Origin: Myxococcales bacterium
GTDB taxonomy: Bacteria > Myxococcota_A > Polyangia > Polyangiales > Polyangiaceae
DNA length: 64,000 nt
NCBI GenBank assembly: GCA_903642325.1
Contig: CAHJWM010000003.1
Location: forward strand, 1 to 64,000
Reading direction: 5' to 3'
Shown here: positions 26,365-36,673 of the stretch, in pieces
Layout of the letters: each line of letters starts with the position of its first letter
Position numbering within the stretch: the stretch's first letter is position 1
The notes under the pieces: model-generated
Seen by the model: the letters and a program-made list of their open reading frames with translations, nothing else
Database searches by the model: none
What the model was told of the DNA's origin: nothing
Made by a program: the position numbers and the translations under genes

Positions 26365-27480
26365 TCAGACTTTGAGCGGAAATTCCGCGGCGAAACGCGC
26401 CAACGCGCCGGCCAGCAGCGTTTTTCGCCAACCTTCCAGGGCCGCGCCCAGGTCGAGCGTGCCGCGGCCGAGCACGTGGCTACGGAGGCCCTTGACGATG
26501 CGAGAAGGCAAGGCCAGCTCTGGGGCGACGTCTTCCGAGACGCACACCTCCGCGCGCGCGGCCGCGAGCCAGCCGTCGACTTGGAGCTCGCGCTTGGTTG
26601 CATAGGCCGGCGGGTCGATGGGCGTGAAGCCGGTGCCTTCGGCTGCATCGGCCACACGGGTCATGCCGGTCACCAACGTCTGCGACAGCTCGCGAGACCA
26701 ACTGCGTGGCACGCCCTTGATGCGCTGCAACTCATCGACGGAACGTGGTAGCCGGCTCGCCAGCGACAGGAGCGTCTTGTTTTCGGGAGCATTTTCACGG
26801 TCGCGCTCGGGCAGCTGATTGAACCATTGAATGAGGTAGCGGAGGCCCGCTTGCCCACGGTAATCGAGCTGCCATGCATTGCGAAATGAATCGAGCGAAA
26901 GCACCGGCGCGGCCGCGCCTTCGTTCCAGATGGACTCGGCCGATGCCAGCGGCACCAAGTCGGCGCGACCGAGCGCGGCCACGCGCTCCTTGAGGAACGC
27001 ATATAACTGCGGCAAATGCTCGACGTCTGCCGCAGCATACGCGAGCTGTGAAGCCGATAGCGGTCTTCGCACCCAGTCGTCTGCTTGATGGGCCTTGGTC
27101 GCCCGCAGTCCGAATGCGCGAAATTGTGCGTAAGCGAGCGAAACACTGTGCTCCACCGTGCTCAAGGACCAGGCGACCTGCGTGTCGAATACGCGCGGAC
27201 GCGTCGTCAAACCCAGGCGCGCCCCGATAAGCATCACATCCTGCTGCCCGGCGTGTAGTACCCATGTGGAACCGCGCTGAAAGGCTTCGGCAATCGGCGT
27301 CAGGTCTCGAAGCGCAATGGCATCGACCAGAAAAATCTGGCTCCCGTCCGAGACTTGAAGCAAACACAGCTCGGTGCCGGAACGATTCGACTCGAACTCC
27401 GTGTCTAGGAACAGGGTTTCCGCGTCGAGCAGGGCTCGGTTCAACTCGGGCAGCTCGGCGCTGCTAGCGATCAGTTTCAC
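26365..27480 (-). CDS. rnd: Ribonuclease D
   Basis: This is a 371-residue 3'-5' exoribonuclease that trims tRNA and other small RNA ends. The DEDDy nuclease domain occupies residues 1-175: DTEFE (Exo I), VLHAGQQDVMLI (Exo II) and YAAADVEHLPQLY (Exo III with Tyr). An HRDC domain follows at about 205-290 (FNQLPERDRENAPENKTLL, IKGVPRSW). All four acidic metal ligands are present. The start is ATG at 27480. It is divergent from the ether-lipid operon and followed by apaG 40 nt downstream. Confidence 0.93.
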   Translation of the reverse strand: MKLIASSAELPELNRALLDAETLFLDTEFESNRSGTELCLLQVSDGSQIFLVDAIALRDLTPIAEAFQRGSTWVLHAGQQDVMLIGARLGLTTRPRVFDTQVAWSLSTVEHSVSLAYAQFRAFGLRATKAHQADDWVRRPLSASQLAYAAADVEHLPQLYAFLKERVAALGRADLVPLASAESIWNEGAAAPVLSLDSFRNAWQLDYRGQAGLRYLIQWFNQLPERDRENAPENKTLLSLASRLPRSVDELQRIKGVPRSWSRELSQTLVTGMTRVADAAEGTGFTPIDPPAYATKRELQVDGWLAAARAEVCVSEDVAPELALPSRIVKGLRSHVLGRGTLDLGAALEGWRKTLLAGALARFAAEFPLKV

Positions 27481-27664: not shown

Positions 27665-28333
27665 TTGGCCGCCTGTTACTTTGACGTCGACGGAACGCTG
27701 GTAACCAGCAATTTGGTTCACCCAACGCTCTACTATTTGATCAATCAAGGCACGCCCCTGCAGGCGGCGCTGCGCGTCGGGCGTGCGTTGTTGGGCGCCC
27801 CGCGCATGGCGCTCGCCGAGCTCGTCGATCGACGCACCTTCAACGAGCTCCTGTTCGCGAGCTTCGCAGGCATCAGTGAGGACCGCATGGTGCTGCTTGC
27901 GGAGGACGCTTTCGAGAATGTGCTTCGGCCTTCGCTGTATCCGGCGGCCAAGGGCCTGATCGAAAAGAGTCGCGCCGCCGGCCACGACGTGGTGCTCGTA
28001 TCCGGCGCGCTGACCGTCGTTTTGCAGCAACTCGCTCGCTACCTGGGCGCGCAGGAGTCGATTGGCAATCGCTTGGAATTCAAGGACGGCATCGCCACTG
28101 GCAAGCTGTTGAAACCCGTCGTTGCCGGCCCGGAAAAGGCGCGCTTGATCCGCGAGCACGCCAAGCAGAAGGGTTACGATTTAGCCGAGTGTTTTGCGTT
28201 CAGTGATAGCTACTCGGACGTGCCTATGTTGAGCGTCGTCGGCCATCCTGCCGCCGTGAATCCCGACAAACGCTTGGCGCTTCTAGCCAAGGCCTACAGC
28301 TGGCCAAGCTTCGATTTGAATCACCCGACATGA
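27665..28333 (+). CDS. HAD-superfamily (subclass IB) phosphatase
   Basis: This is a 222-residue hydrolase of the SerB-like HAD family. Motif I is YFDVDGTLV with nucleophile Asp7 and Asp9, motif II is the Ser in VLVSGAL, and motif III/IV is the Lys region with CFAFSDSYSDVPML. It should dephosphorylate a small phospho-substrate, with a lipid or glycerol phosphate being the logical guess from its neighbours. Start: the upstream in-frame stop at 27638 leaves TTG at 27665 as the only plausible start. It overlaps the next gene by 4 nt and is the first gene of the operon. It probably corresponds to one of the small elb genes beside elbD in Myxococcus. Confidence 0.82.
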   Translation: MAACYFDVDGTLVTSNLVHPTLYYLINQGTPLQAALRVGRALLGAPRMALAELVDRRTFNELLFASFAGISEDRMVLLAEDAFENVLRPSLYPAAKGLIEKSRAAGHDVVLVSGALTVVLQQLARYLGAQESIGNRLEFKDGIATGKLLKPVVAGPEKARLIREHAKQKGYDLAECFAFSDSYSDVPMLSVVGHPAAVNPDKRLALLAKAYSWPSFDLNHPT

Positions 28334-29937
28334 ATCATCCCTGCCTCGTTACTTTGGAGCGTGACAGCGCGCCGCGCGTCTTATTTTCCGGTGACCGACT
28401 CGTGGAAGTCGACTTGCCGCCCGGCACGCGCTGCATTTATCCGAAGCCGCCCGCGACCGGATTGAAGGATCCGGACGCTGCTATCCGTTACGCGCTCAAT
28501 CATCCGCTCGGTACGGACCCCCTTCACTCCAAGCTTCGCCCGGGCATGAAGGTGACCATCGCCATCGACGACATTTCGGTGCCGCTGCCGCCCATGAAGC
28601 GTCCGGACGCGCGCGAGCGCGTGCTAACCATCGTGCTCGCGTTGCTGGCCGATCACGGCGTCGAAGACGTCGAGCTGATCATCGCCACGGGAATTCACCG
28701 ACGCATGAAGGGCGCCGAGATTCGGCACATGGTGGGAGACGTGATCTTCGACGCCTACTATCCGGAGCGCTTGTACAACCATGACGCAGAGGACAAGGCG
28801 AACATGGTCGAGATTGGTAAGACCCGCCATGGGGACCCGCTCGAGCTCAACCGTCGGGCGGCCGACAGCGACCTTTTGATCTACGTGAACCTCAATTTCG
28901 TGGCCATGAACGGTGGGCACAAATCGGTTGCCGTCGGTTTGTGCAGCTACAAGAGCCTGCGCCCGCATCACAACCCGCGCACGATCGCCGCCTCCGATAG
29001 CTACATGGATCCAAAGCGCTCCAAGCTTGCGACGGATATCGAGCTGATGGGCCGTTTGGCGCACGAAAAGCTCAATATCTTCACAATCGAAACCACGGTC
29101 AACAATCGCATGTTCGACCGTTCGCTCGAGTTTTTGACCAAGAACGAAGACGACCTGAGCGGGGCCGAGCGCTTGAAACTGAAGGCCATGGTGCTGGCCA
29201 CGAGCAAGCTACCGCAGGGCGCGCGCCAGGCCATTTTCGACAAGTTTCCGGCCCCCTACGAGATCACGGGTGTGGTCGCGGGTGCGACGGACGCCGTCCA
29301 CGAACAAACCATCACCCGCAACTTCGAGCAGTACTGCGTGCCGATCGATGGTCAGGCGGACGTGCTGGTCACGGGTATTCCGTTCATCAGCCCGTACAAC
29401 GTGCACGCATTTTTGAATCCGTTGCTCGTCCAAGTCCTCGCGCAGGGCTACTTGTTCAACATGTATCGCAACGCGCCGCTCGTGAAGAAGGGTGGGACGC
29501 TGATCATCACTCATCCTTGCACCGACAAATTCGATCACGAGCAGCATGCACCGTACATCGACTTCGTGCATCGTTTGCTGCCGGAGACTCGCGATTCCGA
29601 AGTGCTTCGTGAAAAATACGAAGAAAAGTTCGCAGAAGACCCGGCCTTCATCCAAATGTTCCGCACCGGCCATGCGTACCATCCAGCGCATCCGTTTTTC
29701 ATGTGGTACTGGGGTGAAAACGGCCGTCAGCATTTGGGAAGAGTGATCGTCGTCGGCGCCGACAACGAGTACATCCCGAAGTTACTCGGCTGGGAGACGT
29801 CGCCCAGCATGGAAGATGCGCTGTATCGTGCGAAGGGCGGAGAGCTGCGTTCACTGGATGTGACCTTGCTCAAGGTCCCGCCGATCGTGATGGGCGACAT
29901 GCGCCTGCCCAACTCCAACAGCAACGGAGGCGCTTGA
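28330..29937 (+). CDS. LarA-like (DUF2088) protein in the ether-lipid operon
   Basis: This is a 535-residue protein of the nickel-dependent lactate racemase (LarA) superfamily. The N-terminal DUF2088 domain shows VTIAIDDISVPLPP, the histidine motif IATGIHRRMKGAEIRHMVG, NHDAEDK, and NGGHKSVAVGLCSYKSLRPHH, which matches the LarA region holding Lys184 and His200. The motif that carries catalytic His174 in LarA (an E/x-P-H pair before GGxKS) reads NLNFVAMN here, so a different reaction is likely. It is longer than LarA (about 425 residues). It overlaps the HAD gene by 4 nt and the elbD-like gene by 1 nt. No larB, larC or larE is nearby. Confidence 0.78.
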   Translation: MNHPCLVTLERDSAPRVLFSGDRLVEVDLPPGTRCIYPKPPATGLKDPDAAIRYALNHPLGTDPLHSKLRPGMKVTIAIDDISVPLPPMKRPDARERVLTIVLALLADHGVEDVELIIATGIHRRMKGAEIRHMVGDVIFDAYYPERLYNHDAEDKANMVEIGKTRHGDPLELNRRAADSDLLIYVNLNFVAMNGGHKSVAVGLCSYKSLRPHHNPRTIAASDSYMDPKRSKLATDIELMGRLAHEKLNIFTIETTVNNRMFDRSLEFLTKNEDDLSGAERLKLKAMVLATSKLPQGARQAIFDKFPAPYEITGVVAGATDAVHEQTITRNFEQYCVPIDGQADVLVTGIPFISPYNVHAFLNPLLVQVLAQGYLFNMYRNAPLVKKGGTLIITHPCTDKFDHEQHAPYIDFVHRLLPETRDSEVLREKYEEKFAEDPAFIQMFRTGHAYHPAHPFFMWYWGENGRQHLGRVIVVGADNEYIPKLLGWETSPSMEDALYRAKGGELRSLDVTLLKVPPIVMGDMRLPNSNSNGGA

Positions 29938-32900
29938 TGGTCGGCGTCGCTATCACGCCGAGTAAATCTGCGCCGATGCTCGACATGCAGCGCATGCTGC
30001 GAGGCCGGCGGCTGGTAGTCGTCGGCGGAACCGGCTTTTTGGGCAAGGTGTGGTGGGCTTTTCTGCTCTCGCGCTTTCCCGATATCGAGCGCATTTACCT
30101 GGTGATGCGGCCGAAAGGCGGGGCGGGGGTCGAAGAACGGTACGAGAAAGAAGTCGAGCCGAGCCCAGTTCTGGACCCGCTGCGCACTACGCACGGCGCA
30201 AACTTTACCCGCTGGATTCGCGGCAAGCTCACGGTGGTCGCGGGGGATGTGGTGCAACCCTTCTGCGGCATGTCGAGCGAGATGCGCGAAGACCTACGGG
30301 GCAACGTCGACGCGGTCGTCAATGTCGCGGGCGTGGTCGATTTCGATCCCCCGCTCGACGAAGCGCTCGAAGTGAACGCCTTTGGAGTGCAAAACCTGGT
30401 TGCCTTGGCGCGTGATCTTGGCGGCGTCCCCCTCCTGCACACGAGCACGTGCTACGTGGCTGGCACGCAAACCGGGCACGTGCCGGAGATCGACCCGCGA
30501 GAGTTTCCGTTTCCGCGTGCGCACGAGCTCGACCGTTCACACTGGGATCCCGATCGCGAGATAGCAGAATGCTTGGATGTGATCGAGCAAGCGCGGCACC
30601 GTGCGAGCGACGCCTTCCGCCAGAGCCGCTTCTTGGACGAAGCGAAGAAGAATTTGCTCGAGCGAAACGAGCCGGGCCGCGGCGCCGTGCTGGACGCCGA
30701 AGTGCGGCGCGTGAAGCGCAAGTTCGTCGAAGCCCGATTGGCCGAAATGGGCATGGAACGAGCCCAATTTTGGGGGTTTCCGAACACATACACGTACACC
30801 AAAGCGATCGGCGAGCAGATCGCCGCGTCCTCGGGACTACCCTTTACGATCGTACGACCTGCGGTCGTCGAATCGACCTCGCATTTTCCATTCCCAGGTT
30901 GGAACGAGGGCGTCAACACGAGCGCGCCGCTTATTTTCATCGTGCGCCAGGGAGGCCTACAGATCCCGGGCTCCGACAACTACTTGGACGTCATCCCCTG
31001 CGACATGGTGGCGGCGGGTCTCACGCTCGCGCTCGGCGAATTGCTCGAAGGCACGGCCAAGGCCGTCTATCAATTAGGCTCGAGCGACTCGAATCCGTGC
31101 ACCATGCGGCGGTTCTTCGAGCTCAGCGGCTTGTACAAGCGGCGCTATTTTCAGAAGACGGGCAAGGGAGGGCCCGTCATGTCTTTCCTGCAGTCGCATT
31201 ACGAGGGTGCCATGCTCTCGAAGACGCAGTTCGAGAAGTACGGCCCGAACGTGATCGCCCGGCAGGGGAAAGCGTTGTCGAAGATCATTCGTAAGGCCGC
31301 GGTCGGCCCGGCGGCGCCGCTTCTGAAGCCGGCCGCCAAGGTGCTGTACGAGTTTTCCGAGCAACAGCGGAAAGTGGGCAACGTGCTCACCGTGTTTTTG
31401 CCTTTTACTAGTCAATTTCATTACATTTTCCGGTGCGACAATACGCGCGCCGCTCACGCGCGGCTGTCGGAGGCGGAGCGGGCGATCGTCGACTGGTCGC
31501 CCGAGAGTATCGACTGGCGCTCCTGGTTTCTGGACGTGCACGTGCCGGGACTGGAACGCTTCGTGTTCCCGCAGATCGAAGAGCGGTTGCGTCGCCCGAA
31601 GAAGGCTCCGGAACGCCACGACACGTTGCCCGCTTTGCTCGACGAAATGGCCGAGCGCTTCGAGCTTGGTGTAGCATTGCAGCGGACCGAGAAGGACGGG
31701 CTGAGCCGGCTTTCATTCAGTGAGTGGCGCGAGCGCTCCGGTGCCTGTGCGGCGCGCTTGGTGGAAGCCGGCGTTCGTCCGGGCGATCGCGTGCTCCTTG
31801 CCGCGCAAAATCATCCGGCCTGGCCGATCTGTTTCTTCGGCATTCTGAAGGCCGGTGCCACCGTCGTGCCGCTCGACGCGAGTATCGATGGGGTCGCGGC
31901 GCAAAACCTGAAGGAGGCTTCCGGCGCGAAAATTTTCATCGCCGACGCGCAAGCCGAAGAGCGCCTCCGGCCTGCGCTGATGGGCGCTGTGCGTTTCCTC
32001 GACCTGCTGAGCATGTCGGAAAAGGGCTCGGTCGGGCTCGGGCTGGCCGTGGACGCGGACGACGTGGCGGTGCTCATTTACACTAGCGGCACGACGGGGC
32101 GGCCCAAGGGCGTGCAGCTCACGCACAAAAATCTGACAGCGCTGATTGCTTCACTGGCGCCGCTCTTTCCTCTCGGCAGAGGCGACCGAGTGCTCAGTGT
32201 TCTGCCGCTCCACCACACCTTCGAGCTAACCTGCGGCATGCTGCTGCCGCTCTCCCGCGGCGCGCGCATCGTGTACCTGGACGAGCTCAACGCCGACCGT
32301 TTGGTGAGCGGCCTGCAGATGGGCAAGATCACCGCGTTGATCGGCGTGCCCGCACTTTGGGAAATGCTCGAGCGTCGCATCGTTGCGCGCGTGGCAGAGC
32401 ACGGCGCGCTCGCCTCTCACGTGTTCGAGTTTGCCATCGAGCTCAATCGCTCGCTCGGCAAGAACCTCGGTATCGATACGGGAAAGATGCTATTCGGTCC
32501 GGTGCATCAGGGGCTCGGAGGTCATCTCAAGTTCCTGGTCAGCGGCGGCGCGGCCCTGCCACGAAGTACGCATCACCTGTTTGCAGGCCTCGGTTTGCAC
32601 CTAGCCGAGGGCTACGGCTTGACCGAGGCATCTCCGGTCTTGAGCGTGGCTCAAGGCGGGCCGCGCGCCCAGGCCGGTCATGTCGGGCGTGCCATACCCG
32701 GGGTCGAGCTGAAGCTCGAGTTACCGAACGCGGAGGGCGTCGGAGAAGTGCTGGCCCGGGGTCCAAACGTGATGCTCGGTTACGCGGGGGACGCGGAGGC
32801 AACGAGCGCCGTAATCAGCGACGGATGGCTGCGCACGGGTGACCTTGGAAAGATCGATCGCAGGGGCCAACTGACGATCGTCGGTCGGGCGAAAGACGTG

Positions 32901-34604
32901 GTCGTTGGTTCGAGCGGTGAGAACGTGTACCCGGACGACGTCGAGGCACGGCTTGGCCCGATTGAGCATGTGGCCGAGCTGTCGGTGCTCGGGGTCCCCG
33001 ATGGCCGCGGCGGCGAACGTTTGGCATGCGTGGCAATCCCGGACACCGCGAATGACCTGTCACGCGCCAAGCGCCACGAGAAAGCTCGGGCGGCACTCGA
33101 CTCGGCGTTGCTCAAGTTGCCCAGCAGCCAACGGCCAGCGCAAATCTTGCTCTTCGATACGCCGCTGCCCCGGACCTCCACCCGCAAGGTGAAGCGCGGC
33201 GAGGTAAAGCGCTTGGTCGAGCGCGCGCTCGCGAGCGAAGGGCCGGCGAGCGCTCGGCCGGCCGCGCGCGACGGCGCGGCCGCTTTGGTGCGCGCTGCCG
33301 TAGGCACCATCGCGCGCCGCGATCCGGGTCAAATTACCGCCGAAATGAGCGTGCGGGGCGACCTCGGGTTCGACTCGTTGATGCAGCTCGAGCTGCTCGT
33401 CGCCCTCGAGGCTCAGTTGGGCCACTCGTTGGACGCCGAGCGTCTGAGCGCTTCGAGCTCGGTAGCCGACGTCGAAGCGATCGTTCGCGAGACCAGTGAT
33501 GCCCGGAAGATTGCTGCCACCAGCAGCATCGAGCAGGAACAACCGAAGCCCCTCGAGATCCCGCCCGCCTTGCGTGACGCAGCGATGCACTGGATGGGCC
33601 GCGCCCAGATGGGTTTCTACGACACGGTGCTGCGCACGACGGTCACTGGTCGCGCCTTCATCCCCCATAATCGCAGCGCGATCATCGCGGCCAACCACGC
33701 GAGCCATTTGGACATGGGCCTCGTCAAGTACGCGCTCGGTAGCTACGGCCGAGACCTGGTGTCGTTGGCCGCGCAGGATTACTTCTTCGAGGGGAACCGG
33801 TTTCGCAAAGCGTACTTCGAGAACTTCACGAATCTCGTGCCGATGACGCGCAATGGTTCGCTTCGTCAAGCCCTGCGCCAAGCCGGGGACTTGCTAGAGC
33901 AAGGCAAAACGGTGTTGATTTTTCCGGAAGGCACGCGCAGCGCCGACGGTGAGGTGCACGAGTTCAAAGCCTCGCTTGGTCACCTGGCACTGCACTACGA
34001 CAAAGACATCGTGCCCATCTATTTAGCGGGCACGCATGCGGCGCTTCCCAAGGGCAGCACGGTGCTCCGGGGACGGGAGGTCGAGGCACGCATCGGGCTG
34101 CCGCTCTTGGCTGCCGAGCTCAAGCGACTAACGCGCGGGCTCCCGATGAGTGAAGCCTCCCGCGCCGTGGCCAAGCTGACCGAGCGTGCGGTCACGGAGC
34201 TGTCCAAGGGCCGGGTGCTCACCCTCGAGCACCTGCAGCCGAGCGATGTGCTGGCGCCACCCGCAATGCTCGAAGACCGCAGCTTGGCCCCCGTATTTCG
34301 TGAGCTGGAGACGCGCTTTTTAGCGGGCAGCGTGGAGACACCGGTCAGCTTTTATTTTTCGCTCGGCGACACCGAGCGTTGGAGCGTTCGCATCACGCAG
34401 GACTCTTGTCAGGTCACGGCCGGCAAGATCGAAAGCCCTGCGGACTGTGTGCTGAAGACCTCACCGGCCATGTTCACCCGCATCGTTCGCGAGAGGTACA
34501 CGCCATCCCCGGCTGAATTCGTGGCCGGCGCCGTCAAATCCAACAACATTGCGTTGCTGTTTACGTTTCAGAAAGCATTTCAGCTGTCGCAGGCGGGTCA
34601 TTGA
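29937..34604 (+). CDS. elbD: Multidomain acyl reductase / acyl ligase / ACP / acyltransferase / SCP2 protein (ElbD-like)
   Basis: This is a 1555-residue fusion with five domains. Residues 20-400 are a fatty-acyl reductase (SDR) with GGTGFLG at 30-36 and the catalytic YTYTK at 285-289. About 550-1080 is an AMP-forming acyl ligase with YTSGTTGRPKG at 715-725 and GYGLTEASPV. An acyl carrier protein has Ser1147 in LGFDSLMQ. About 1195-1430 is a PlsC-type acyltransferase with NHASHLD at 1253-1259 and FPEGTRS at 1329. The last 95 residues look like an SCP2 sterol-carrier domain. ElbD of Myxococcus xanthus has the same reductase, ligase, ACP and acyltransferase content and makes alkyl ether lipids needed for fruiting. 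ATG at 29937 overlaps the preceding stop (TGATG). Confidence 0.88.
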   Translation: MVGVAITPSKSAPMLDMQRMLRGRRLVVVGGTGFLGKVWWAFLLSRFPDIERIYLVMRPKGGAGVEERYEKEVEPSPVLDPLRTTHGANFTRWIRGKLTVVAGDVVQPFCGMSSEMREDLRGNVDAVVNVAGVVDFDPPLDEALEVNAFGVQNLVALARDLGGVPLLHTSTCYVAGTQTGHVPEIDPREFPFPRAHELDRSHWDPDREIAECLDVIEQARHRASDAFRQSRFLDEAKKNLLERNEPGRGAVLDAEVRRVKRKFVEARLAEMGMERAQFWGFPNTYTYTKAIGEQIAASSGLPFTIVRPAVVESTSHFPFPGWNEGVNTSAPLIFIVRQGGLQIPGSDNYLDVIPCDMVAAGLTLALGELLEGTAKAVYQLGSSDSNPCTMRRFFELSGLYKRRYFQKTGKGGPVMSFLQSHYEGAMLSKTQFEKYGPNVIARQGKALSKIIRKAAVGPAAPLLKPAAKVLYEFSEQQRKVGNVLTVFLPFTSQFHYIFRCDNTRAAHARLSEAERAIVDWSPESIDWRSWFLDVHVPGLERFVFPQIEERLRRPKKAPERHDTLPALLDEMAERFELGVALQRTEKDGLSRLSFSEWRERSGACAARLVEAGVRPGDRVLLAAQNHPAWPICFFGILKAGATVVPLDASIDGVAAQNLKEASGAKIFIADAQAEERLRPALMGAVRFLDLLSMSEKGSVGLGLAVDADDVAVLIYTSGTTGRPKGVQLTHKNLTALIASLAPLFPLGRGDRVLSVLPLHHTFELTCGMLLPLSRGARIVYLDELNADRLVSGLQMGKITALIGVPALWEMLERRIVARVAEHGALASHVFEFAIELNRSLGKNLGIDTGKMLFGPVHQGLGGHLKFLVSGGAALPRSTHHLFAGLGLHLAEGYGLTEASPVLSVAQGGPRAQAGHVGRAIPGVELKLELPNAEGVGEVLARGPNVMLGYAGDAEATSAVISDGWLRTGDLGKIDRRGQLTIVGRAKDVVVGSSGENVYPDDVEARLGPIEHVAELSVLGVPDGRGGERLACVAIPDTANDLSRAKRHEKARAALDSALLKLPSSQRPAQILLFDTPLPRTSTRKVKRGEVKRLVERALASEGPASARPAARDGAAALVRAAVGTIARRDPGQITAEMSVRGDLGFDSLMQLELLVALEAQLGHSLDAERLSASSSVADVEAIVRETSDARKIAATSSIEQEQPKPLEIPPALRDAAMHWMGRAQMGFYDTVLRTTVTGRAFIPHNRSAIIAANHASHLDMGLVKYALGSYGRDLVSLAAQDYFFEGNRFRKAYFENFTNLVPMTRNGSLRQALRQAGDLLEQGKTVLIFPEGTRSADGEVHEFKASLGHLALHYDKDIVPIYLAGTHAALPKGSTVLRGREVEARIGLPLLAAELKRLTRGLPMSEASRAVAKLTERAVTELSKGRVLTLEHLQPSDVLAPPAMLEDRSLAPVFRELETRFLAGSVETPVSFYFSLGDTERWSVRITQDSCQVTAGKIESPADCVLKTSPAMFTRIVRERYTPSPAEFVAGAVKSNNIALLFTFQKAFQLSQAGH

Positions 34605-34606
34605 GT

Positions 34607-35635
34607 ATGGACGGTGAAGGAAACCGCCCCTTACCCAAGCGGCTCTGGGTTGGCGGCGCCACGGGGTTTTTGGGCTCGCATCTGGTGCGCTCGTTGTTGG
34701 ATCAGGGGCACCGATTGGTGCTCGCTTCGCGCTCGGGCGGAGAGCTTTGCGGGATGCCGGTGCAGGCGATCGACGTGCTCGATCAGGCGGCAGTACAGGC
34801 GAGCGCGCGCGGCTGCGAAGGCGCATTCCTGGCTACGGGCAAGGTATCGCGCGACCGCAATGCAGGTGAGGAGCTACACCGCGCGCACGTGCTCGGCACC
34901 CGCAGTGCCCTCTCCGGACTGCGCGCGGCCGGCGTTGGGCGTGTGGTCGTGGCCAGCACCAGTGGTACGGTCGCGGTCAGCGGTGATGCTCATGCGATAG
35001 CTGACGAAAGTGCAAAAGTGCCGCTCGAGCTCGTGGCGATGTGGCCGTATTATCGCAGCAAATTGTACGCCGAACGCGAAGCGCTGGCGGCCAACGTGCC
35101 CGGCTTCGAAGTCGTTCTGGTCAACCCTAGCTTGCTGCTCGGTCCGGGCGATACCCGCGAATCATCGACCGGCGACGTCCGCCGTTACCTGGAGCGCGCG
35201 ATCCCGGCGATCCCGGGCGGGGGCATTGCCTTCGTGGACGTGCGGGATGCGGCGCGGGGCATGTCGCTCGCATACGATCTCGGTCGCGCTGGCGAACGCT
35301 ACATTTTGAACTCGAAGAATATGAGCCTCGCCGCGTTTTTTCAGCGTTTAGAGCGTATCACCGGGGTCAAGGCCCCGGCTTTACGCATGCCGCGCTCGCG
35401 CCCGCTGGCGATCGGCGTCAATCGCCTCTTCTCCAAGGCTCTACGCGCGATCGGCGGCGAACCCCCGGTCGACGAAATCAGCGTCGAGATGGCGCAATAC
35501 TTTTGGTATTGCAGCGCCGCAAAGGCAGAACGCGAGCTCGGGTTCAGCGCGCGCGACCCAGGGGAAACCCTGCGCGAAACCGTAGCCGACCTGATCGCGC
35601 GCAAGGTCGTCTTTCCGAAACGCAGTGTGAGCTGA
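34607..35635 (+). CDS. NAD(P)-dependent epimerase/dehydratase-like protein of the ether-lipid operon
   Basis: This is a 342-residue extended short-chain dehydrogenase, closest in style to dihydroflavonol-4-reductase and 3-beta-hydroxysteroid dehydrogenase. It shows the N-terminal nucleotide motif GGATGFLGSHLVRSL, STSGTVAVSG around the catalytic Ser, the YYRSK active-site pair, and VVLVNPSLLLGPGD. It likely reduces or oxidises a lipid carbonyl or hydroxyl. It begins 2 nt after elbD (an in-frame TTG at 34601 would overlap it), so it belongs to the operon as its last gene. The exact substrate is unknown. Confidence 0.82.
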   Translation: MDGEGNRPLPKRLWVGGATGFLGSHLVRSLLDQGHRLVLASRSGGELCGMPVQAIDVLDQAAVQASARGCEGAFLATGKVSRDRNAGEELHRAHVLGTRSALSGLRAAGVGRVVVASTSGTVAVSGDAHAIADESAKVPLELVAMWPYYRSKLYAEREALAANVPGFEVVLVNPSLLLGPGDTRESSTGDVRRYLERAIPAIPGGGIAFVDVRDAARGMSLAYDLGRAGERYILNSKNMSLAAFFQRLERITGVKAPALRMPRSRPLAIGVNRLFSKALRAIGGEPPVDEISVEMAQYFWYCSAAKAERELGFSARDPGETLRETVADLIARKVVFPKRSVS

Positions 35636-35837: not shown

Positions 35838-36587
35838 TCAGCGCTTGCGCTTCACGATGTCCGTGCGCGTGGGAGTATCGGGCCTCTTGGCGATCGACGG
35901 TGCGCTCGCGCCGAGCTTGCCGCGCATCAAGTCGCCCAGATTGCCGAAGCCTCTGACCTCGGGCGTTTTCTGCTTTTTTTGCGGCTCCACTGAAGGGGTC
36001 GCCTCCTCGGCAGATGCGCTGACGGTGCCGGCCGCGAAATCGCGAAAATTTTGTTCTTCTTCGACGCGCGCGACGCTGGTTGCGCTGAAGCGGAGCTTGC
36101 CCTGAGCATTCGCGTCCAACACGACGACCGGAAACTCTTTCCCGATCGGAAAGAGCTTGCGGTGATCGGAACCCGGCGGCAGCGGCAGCTCACGAAGTGG
36201 GATTAGTCCATCGCCCTTCGCGGTCGCCACGAACACCCCGAACTTCTCTACACGCGTAACCCTGCCACTCAACACTTCATTCGCGCGGGGTGCCTCACCG
36301 GGCGGCGCAGATTGGCCGAGGGCCTTGAGCAGCGAGCCTTCGAAACGCGGCTCTACGACGCTAACTCGCAGTCGGTCGCCAACGGCGACCCGGACCTTGC
36401 CTTCTGCGTCAAGCAGCTCCACCCGCGGAATTCGGCCGTCGGTCAGCGTGCCCACGTCGACGAACACGGTATCGCTCGCGATCTGCATGACAGTCGCGTC
36501 GAGCACCTCCCCGCGGTTGAGCCGACGCCGAGCGCGATCGCTCCCGCCCTCGGTGGTCATCAATGAAGCAAAGCTGTCGGTCGCCAT
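35838..36587 (-). CDS. S1-domain RNA-binding protein
   Basis: This is a 249-residue protein with two S1-like OB folds: GEVLDATVMQIASDTVFVDVG at about 22-90 and VLSGRVTRVEKFGVFVATAKGDGLIPLREL at about 105-175. A basic, low-complexity tail ending KRKR follows. Tandem S1 repeats bind single-stranded RNA, as in ribosomal protein S1 and translation factors, but this protein is too short to be S1 itself and a regulatory RNA-binding role is more likely. ATG at 36587 (MATDSF) is preferred over 36620. Divergent neighbours are unrelated. Confidence 0.82.
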   Translation of the reverse strand: MATDSFASLMTTEGGSDRARRRLNRGEVLDATVMQIASDTVFVDVGTLTDGRIPRVELLDAEGKVRVAVGDRLRVSVVEPRFEGSLLKALGQSAPPGEAPRANEVLSGRVTRVEKFGVFVATAKGDGLIPLRELPLPPGSDHRKLFPIGKEFPVVVLDANAQGKLRFSATSVARVEEEQNFRDFAAGTVSASAEEATPSVEPQKKQKTPEVRGFGNLGDLMRGKLGASAPSIAKRPDTPTRTDIVKRKR

Positions 36588-36673
36588 GGCGCGCAGCATG
36601 CCACTTGGTCGAATTTCCACAAGACGCGACGCAGCCTTACGGTGCTTTGAAGTGGCTCGGCGGCAACTTGCTT

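Follow-up and report, generated by a model that had tools for sequence, protein, structure and literature searches.

What does a bacterium make with an operon that sets a LarA-like protein among lipid genes, and what does that protein do there? The question is raised by four plus-strand genes at positions 27665-35635 of a 64,000-nucleotide stretch of a Myxococcales bacterium of the family Polyangiaceae (contig CAHJWM010000003.1; the whole stretch is called the window below). They code for an HAD phosphatase, a LarA-like protein, a 1555-residue fusion enzyme and an epimerase/reductase of the short-chain dehydrogenase/reductase (SDR) type. We think it likely that this is an elb operon in which ElbC, loaded with nickel-pincer nucleotide (NPN), performs a hydride step in the synthesis of a 1-O-alkylglycerol lipid.

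The four open reading frames (ORFs) overlap or abut, and all of them lie where the original prediction for this stretch, made from the sequence alone, had placed them. The first, the elbB homologue (27665..28333, plus strand, TTG start), encodes an HAD-IB family phosphatase with a DVDGT motif (PF12710, 121 bits; TIGR01490, 142 bits against a cut-off of 98.3). The elbC homologue (28330..29937, plus strand, ATG start) overlaps it by 4 nt and encodes the LarA-like protein. The elbD homologue (29937..34604, plus strand), coding for the fusion, starts at ATG 29937 within a 1-nt TGATG overlap, and an alternative TTG three bases earlier would give 1556 residues. The elbE homologue (34607..35635, plus strand, from ATG 34607 or TTG 34601) encodes an extended-SDR, NAD-dependent epimerase/reductase-like protein (PF01370, 87 bits) with the catalytic motifs GATGFLG and YYRSK; it scores 198 bits with TIGR03466 (HpnA), under the cut-off of that family.

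This arrangement closely follows the elbA-E genes of Myxococcus xanthus, in which elbB codes for an HAD protein, elbC for what a 2022 review termed a protein of unknown function, ElbD carries FAR, ACS, acyl carrier protein (ACP) and AGPAT-like domains, and ElbE is an epimerase/dehydratase (PMC9131029). In that organism insertions in elbD strongly lower ether lipids and insertions in elbE lower them; most of the alkyl and vinyl ether lipids disappear in elbD mutants, and the ACS and ACP activities of ElbD were confirmed in vitro (PMC9131029). The window shares with the M. xanthus cluster (MIBiG BGC0000871) the order and orientation of HAD elbB, elbC, multidomain ElbD and ElbE, as well as the order of the FAR, ACS, ACP and acyltransferase domains; it differs in lacking elbA, in an extra SCP2 domain in ElbD, and in having about 40% identity to Myxococcus ElbD. 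The sequence compared, standing in for that of M. xanthus, was ElbD of Myxococcus dinghuensis; this protein is 40% identical to the window fusion and comes from a locus (L189) where we observed the five-gene elbA-B-C-D-E layout directly. The window operon is therefore almost certainly the elbB-C-D-E operon of a Polyangia-type myxobacterium, and a new, SCP2-bearing variant of a known operon. Its closest characterised homologue is the M. xanthus system rather than a wax-ester or polyketide pathway, so the elb-type, ElbD-like identity first proposed for it stands. By analogy with M. xanthus, the product of the operon would very probably be ether lipids.

The fusion contains, in this order and all over the curated Pfam cut-offs, NAD_binding_4 (163 bits), AMP-binding (257 bits), PP-binding (36.7 bits) and Acyltransferase (77.4 bits), corresponding to a FAR-type reductase, an acyl-CoA/ACP synthetase, an ACP and a PlsC acyltransferase. 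The motifs of these domains are intact: GGTGFLG and YTYTK in the reductase, TSGTTGRPKG in the ligase, DLGFDSL in the ACP, and HASHLD and FPEGTR in PlsC. At E<=1e-150, 79 of the 282 genomes searched in this phylum encode a relative of the protein. The fifth domain expected in the Pfam order, a C-terminal SCP2 (PF02036), was missed, scoring 12.7 bits when the whole protein was scanned and 17.7 bits for the isolated domain, against a cut-off of 21.3. A profile of 30 members, built by aligning the C-terminus of the fusion with 29 relatives, nevertheless matches the SCP-2-like domain of human MFE-2 (1IKT) with an E-value of 2.5e-5, and 29 of the 30 members match PF02036 singly at E<=1 (best E-value 1.3e-5). 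An AlphaFold2 model of the C-terminus (pLDDT 87) aligns to 1IKT in Foldseek with TM scores of 0.64/0.68 and probability 1.0, and also matches many other SCP2 domains at probability 1.0 as well as the SCP2-like domains of alkylsulfatases. Judging from profile and predicted fold, the SCP2 domain (coding part 34233..34604, plus strand) is real despite its sub-threshold Pfam score, as had been predicted.

Relatives among the Polyangiaceae, Sorangium, Polyangium, Minicystis, Plesiocystis, Enhygromyxa and Bradymonadaceae carry the SCP2 domain in their ElbD. The ElbDs examined from Myxococcus, Corallococcus, Pyxidicoccus, Citreicoccus, Anaeromyxobacter and Acidobacteria lack it: they stop near residue 1425-1449 of the fusion numbering and end in a short unrelated tail. 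From what its domain family suggests, it probably holds a long-chain intermediate. Our literature search, which did not extend to the original Lorenzen 2014 paper, retrieved no paper linking SCP2 with ElbD.

What, then, is ElbC? It scores 786 bits with NCBIfam NF052592 (LarAH14/15/16; cut-off 740), as compared to 848 for the ElbC of M. dinghuensis. The best structural match of its AlphaFold2 model (pLDDT 88.6) is 9q3k (Z 39.0; 455 residues, 2.3 Å) followed by 9q3j (Z 36.0), both single-histidine enzymes, with the canonical LarA 5huq below them (Z 28.3). In all 76 ElbC sequences D80/D81, H123, K198 and H213/H214 are invariant; these correspond to the ribose-binding Asp, the first catalytic His, the NPN-linked Lys and the nickel-binding His, respectively (PMC12611868). 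None of the 76 has a histidine at 183-196, the site of the second catalytic His of LarA (His174), and Asn187 is invariant there; ElbC is therefore not a canonical two-base racemase. Its sequence and modelled two-domain fold place ElbC within the LarA superfamily, among the proteins with a single catalytic histidine.

The solved proteins closest to ElbC, from Streptococcus plurextorum and Blautia wexlerae (9q3k, 9q3j), share with it the fold, the kept NPN residues and the missing His (PMC12611868). Such a one-histidine homologue carried bound NPN, with one-directional action suggested and the substrate unknown; 9q3k itself was purified with NPN bound despite the missing residue (PMC12611868). 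Their identity to ElbC is about 21-24%, and their genes lie among glycolysis-type genes whereas elbC lies among lipid genes. In ElbC, moreover, the region around the missing His reads Asn187-x-Asn189, and the third residue past the Asp is neither Lys nor Arg. NCBIfam already names the NF052592 family as NPN-dependent, and as a hydroxyacid isomerase, although the missing His of ElbC argues against ordinary isomerisation. We found no reported activity for this family (LarAH14/15/16), nor any paper linking LarA/DUF2088 or NPN with ether lipids in a search that did not cover Lorenzen 2014, which may mention the LarA likeness. We consider it quite likely that ElbC binds NPN.

ElbC and ElbD are also retained together. 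Among 282 Myxococcota-level genomes, ElbD occurs in 79 and ElbC in 82, with both in 77, ElbD only in 2, ElbC only in 5 and neither in 198, so that 77 of the 84 genomes having either protein have both. Three of the five ElbC-only genomes contain an ElbD fragment at a contig end, beside elbC. About 14 genomes keep both pairs although elbB-elbC is on another contig than elbD-elbE or over 20 kb away from it, and every named genome with an elbD locus devoid of elbC (16 of 16) has elbC elsewhere, among them Sorangium cellulosum So ce26 and Minicystis rosea. We looked for a conserved extra gene between elbC and elbD where these are split, and found none. The pairing extends to loci of Acidobacteria; elbB adjoins elbC in nearly all relatives' loci, and elbE follows elbD within 1 kb in 49 of the 63 loci of named genomes with enough sequence. 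Since ElbC and ElbD are kept together even when split, ElbC is a part of the system and not a chance neighbour. The balance tilts modestly towards its being required for the ether-lipid pathway.

If ElbC uses NPN, the cofactor has to be supplied. The same genome encodes larE (L141) and larB with larC (L142), all over the NCBIfam cut-offs, and no Lar_N protein other than ElbC was detected in it. The same holds for 34 of the 82 ElbC-containing genomes; 31 of these 34 have LarC, and 29 have LarE over its cut-off in addition. LarC is present in 78 of the 82 ElbC-containing genomes against 130 of the 200 others, and in each of the 12 named elb genomes tested. In L038 and L039/L193 (Plesiocystis pacifica SIR-1), larB-larE-larC and elbB-C-D-E are divergent neighbours, and a gene for a YegS-type lipid kinase follows the elb genes. 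To our knowledge LarB, LarC and LarE have no role besides NPN synthesis, and the adjacency is therefore specific, yet best counted as one evolutionary event.

As a separate observation, eight genomes (G041, G061, G144, G149, G187, G226, G254 and G276) have larC and larE with a very weak Lar_N match or none; it is possible that they encode unrecognised NPN-dependent enzymes.

Several points weigh against the reading that NPN-loaded ElbC serves ether-lipid synthesis. The comparison of LarC counts is confounded by phylogeny, and many genomes without ElbC also have LarC and LarE. The larBEC-elb adjacency is confined to two related genomes of one family (f11). We know of no elbC mutant. None is described in the review (PMC9131029). 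In one Pontiella species that has a homologue of ElbD, ether lipids were not seen (PMC11868695). Finally, the genome that the window comes from codes for an AGPS-like protein, which could form ether bonds independently.

The protein itself gives rise to one alternative, namely that ElbC is a degenerate LarA relative acting in the ether-lipid operon as a non-catalytic scaffold or regulator without NPN. ElbC lacks both the second catalytic His and the phosphate/carboxylate-binding Arg, which makes ordinary racemisation unlikely; a 2020 survey considered that LarA group 16 probably does not use NPN, and Frankia LarAH14 was inactive on the substrates tried (PMC7583248). Against it, the Asp, His, Lys and nickel-binding His are kept in 76 of 76 sequences, the nearest solved relative (9q3k) carries NPN although that same His is missing, larBEC adjoins the elb genes in two genomes, and ElbC is so often the sole Lar_N protein, mostly in genomes that also have LarC. 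We therefore regard this alternative as unlikely.

About equally improbable, in our view, is that the ether bond is formed by the AGPS-like protein, with the elb operon only supplying fatty alcohol and acyl transfer. This FAD protein (L037/L223; L223:2907-5690, minus strand, on contig C13 of the same genome) matches guinea-pig AGPS (4bby) with an E-value of 3.9e-47 and has the HHH motif and a long C-terminal extension. Both routes to alkyl ethers involve FAR, acyltransferase and SDR parts, as in MXAN_1676-1674; the AGPS route makes the ether bond by FAD-dependent AGPS, whereas the elb operon here has no AGPS gene. In M. xanthus, however, deletion of the AGPS homologue MXAN_1676 has a minor effect and ElbD is the main route (PMC9131029). 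The AGPS-like gene of our genome adjoins a phosphatidylserine-decarboxylase-like gene and not FAR or SDR genes, and ether formation by AGPS only would leave the conservation of ElbC unexplained. By analogy with M. xanthus, the two ether-lipid routes may coexist here. A search of this genome for CarF/PF10520 gave no match, and the control sequences gave none either, so that the missing match does not speak for absence.

Very unlikely, by comparison, is an operon making another fatty-alcohol-derived lipid, such as a wax ester or free fatty alcohol, in place of glycerol ethers. A FAR-type reductase and an acyltransferase in one protein would equally fit wax esters, the domain families being common to both, and the ElbD-bearing Pontiella would be accommodated. 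The acyltransferase, however, is of the PlsC/AGPAT type (HX4D, FPEGTR) and not a wax synthase, the HAD phosphatase and the YegS-type lipid kinase beside elbE in relatives fit glycerolipids, and the closest characterised system loses most of its alkyl and vinyl ether lipids with elbD. A polyketide or nonribosomal peptide synthetase (NRPS) origin is ruled out by the absence of condensation and ketosynthase domains, although antiSMASH-type tools call such genes NRPS-like (PMC9426513), and chance or mis-annotated ORFs are ruled out by the ORF positions, the Pfam domains and the relatives in 79 of 282 genomes.

Returning to ElbC as an NPN enzyme of an elb operon, we propose a pathway, whose sequence of events is guesswork. 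Within ElbD, the ligase domain would activate a fatty acid and load the ACP in cis, the FAR-type domain would reduce the ACP-bound acyl group to an aldehyde or alcohol, and the SCP2 domain would keep the long-chain alcohol or a lysolipid between active sites, with the PlsC domain acylating a glycerolipid. ElbC, with NPN made by LarB, LarC and LarE, would carry out a hydride transfer that the pathway needs, acting on either a glycerol derivative or some small hydroxy-substrate. ElbE would act as an NAD(P)-dependent reductase, for example of a 2-keto intermediate resembling alkyl-dihydroxyacetone phosphate (alkyl-DHAP), and ElbB would take off a phosphate, leaving the 1-O-alkylglycerol lipid as the end product.

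A more speculative extension, which we consider distinctly doubtful, is that ElbC forms or prepares the ether bond itself by "borrowed hydride" chemistry on NPN. Here H123 would deprotonate the C2 hydroxyl of an acylated glycerol phosphate and NPN would accept the hydride, giving a transient C2 ketone equivalent to acyl-DHAP; the ElbD-derived fatty alcohol would then displace the C1 acyl group in an AGPS-like exchange, and the hydride would go back to the same face. As this scheme involves no inversion, it would explain the missing second histidine of ElbC. If true, neither AGPS nor oxygen would be needed for this route to ether lipids, and NPN would gain a new class of reaction.

In the window, the operon is flanked upstream by an RNase D-like gene (26365-27480, minus strand) and downstream by an S1-domain gene (35838-36620, minus strand). 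Both are on the opposite strand, and the four genes therefore form an isolated unit. It is the RNase D-like gene, and not elbA, that stands ahead of elbB; elbA mutants of M. xanthus have unaffected ether lipids (PMC9131029), indicating that elbA is inessential to the elb system. In several relatives of the same family, even those with split loci, the RNase D-like and S1-domain genes also adjoin elbBC and elbDE, respectively, hinting that either the joined operon of the window or the split state is a rearrangement. A YegS/diacylglycerol-kinase-like gene lies beside elbE in a subset of loci (L038:15369-16322, L039:16700-17662, and L055, L057, L058, L059, L062, L160, L165, L172, L174, L175, L178, L193 and L215), and is absent from the window operon. 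The substrate of this kinase may be an alkyl- or diglyceride that the pathway produces.

According to the 2022 review, it was unknown by which steps myxobacteria turn a fatty acid into an alkyl ether lipid (PMC9131029). ElbC is now given a structural family, a predicted NPN cofactor and a set of cofactor-making genes, and the single-histidine LarA homologues, whose substrate is unknown, would gain a pathway in which to search for it. The elb genes also occur in Acidobacteria, makers of the branched glycerol dialkyl glycerol tetraether (brGDGT) ether lipids that serve as temperature proxies, where the ether-forming step is debated (PMC10087280). These results suggest an unexpected role for nickel chemistry in ether-lipid synthesis.

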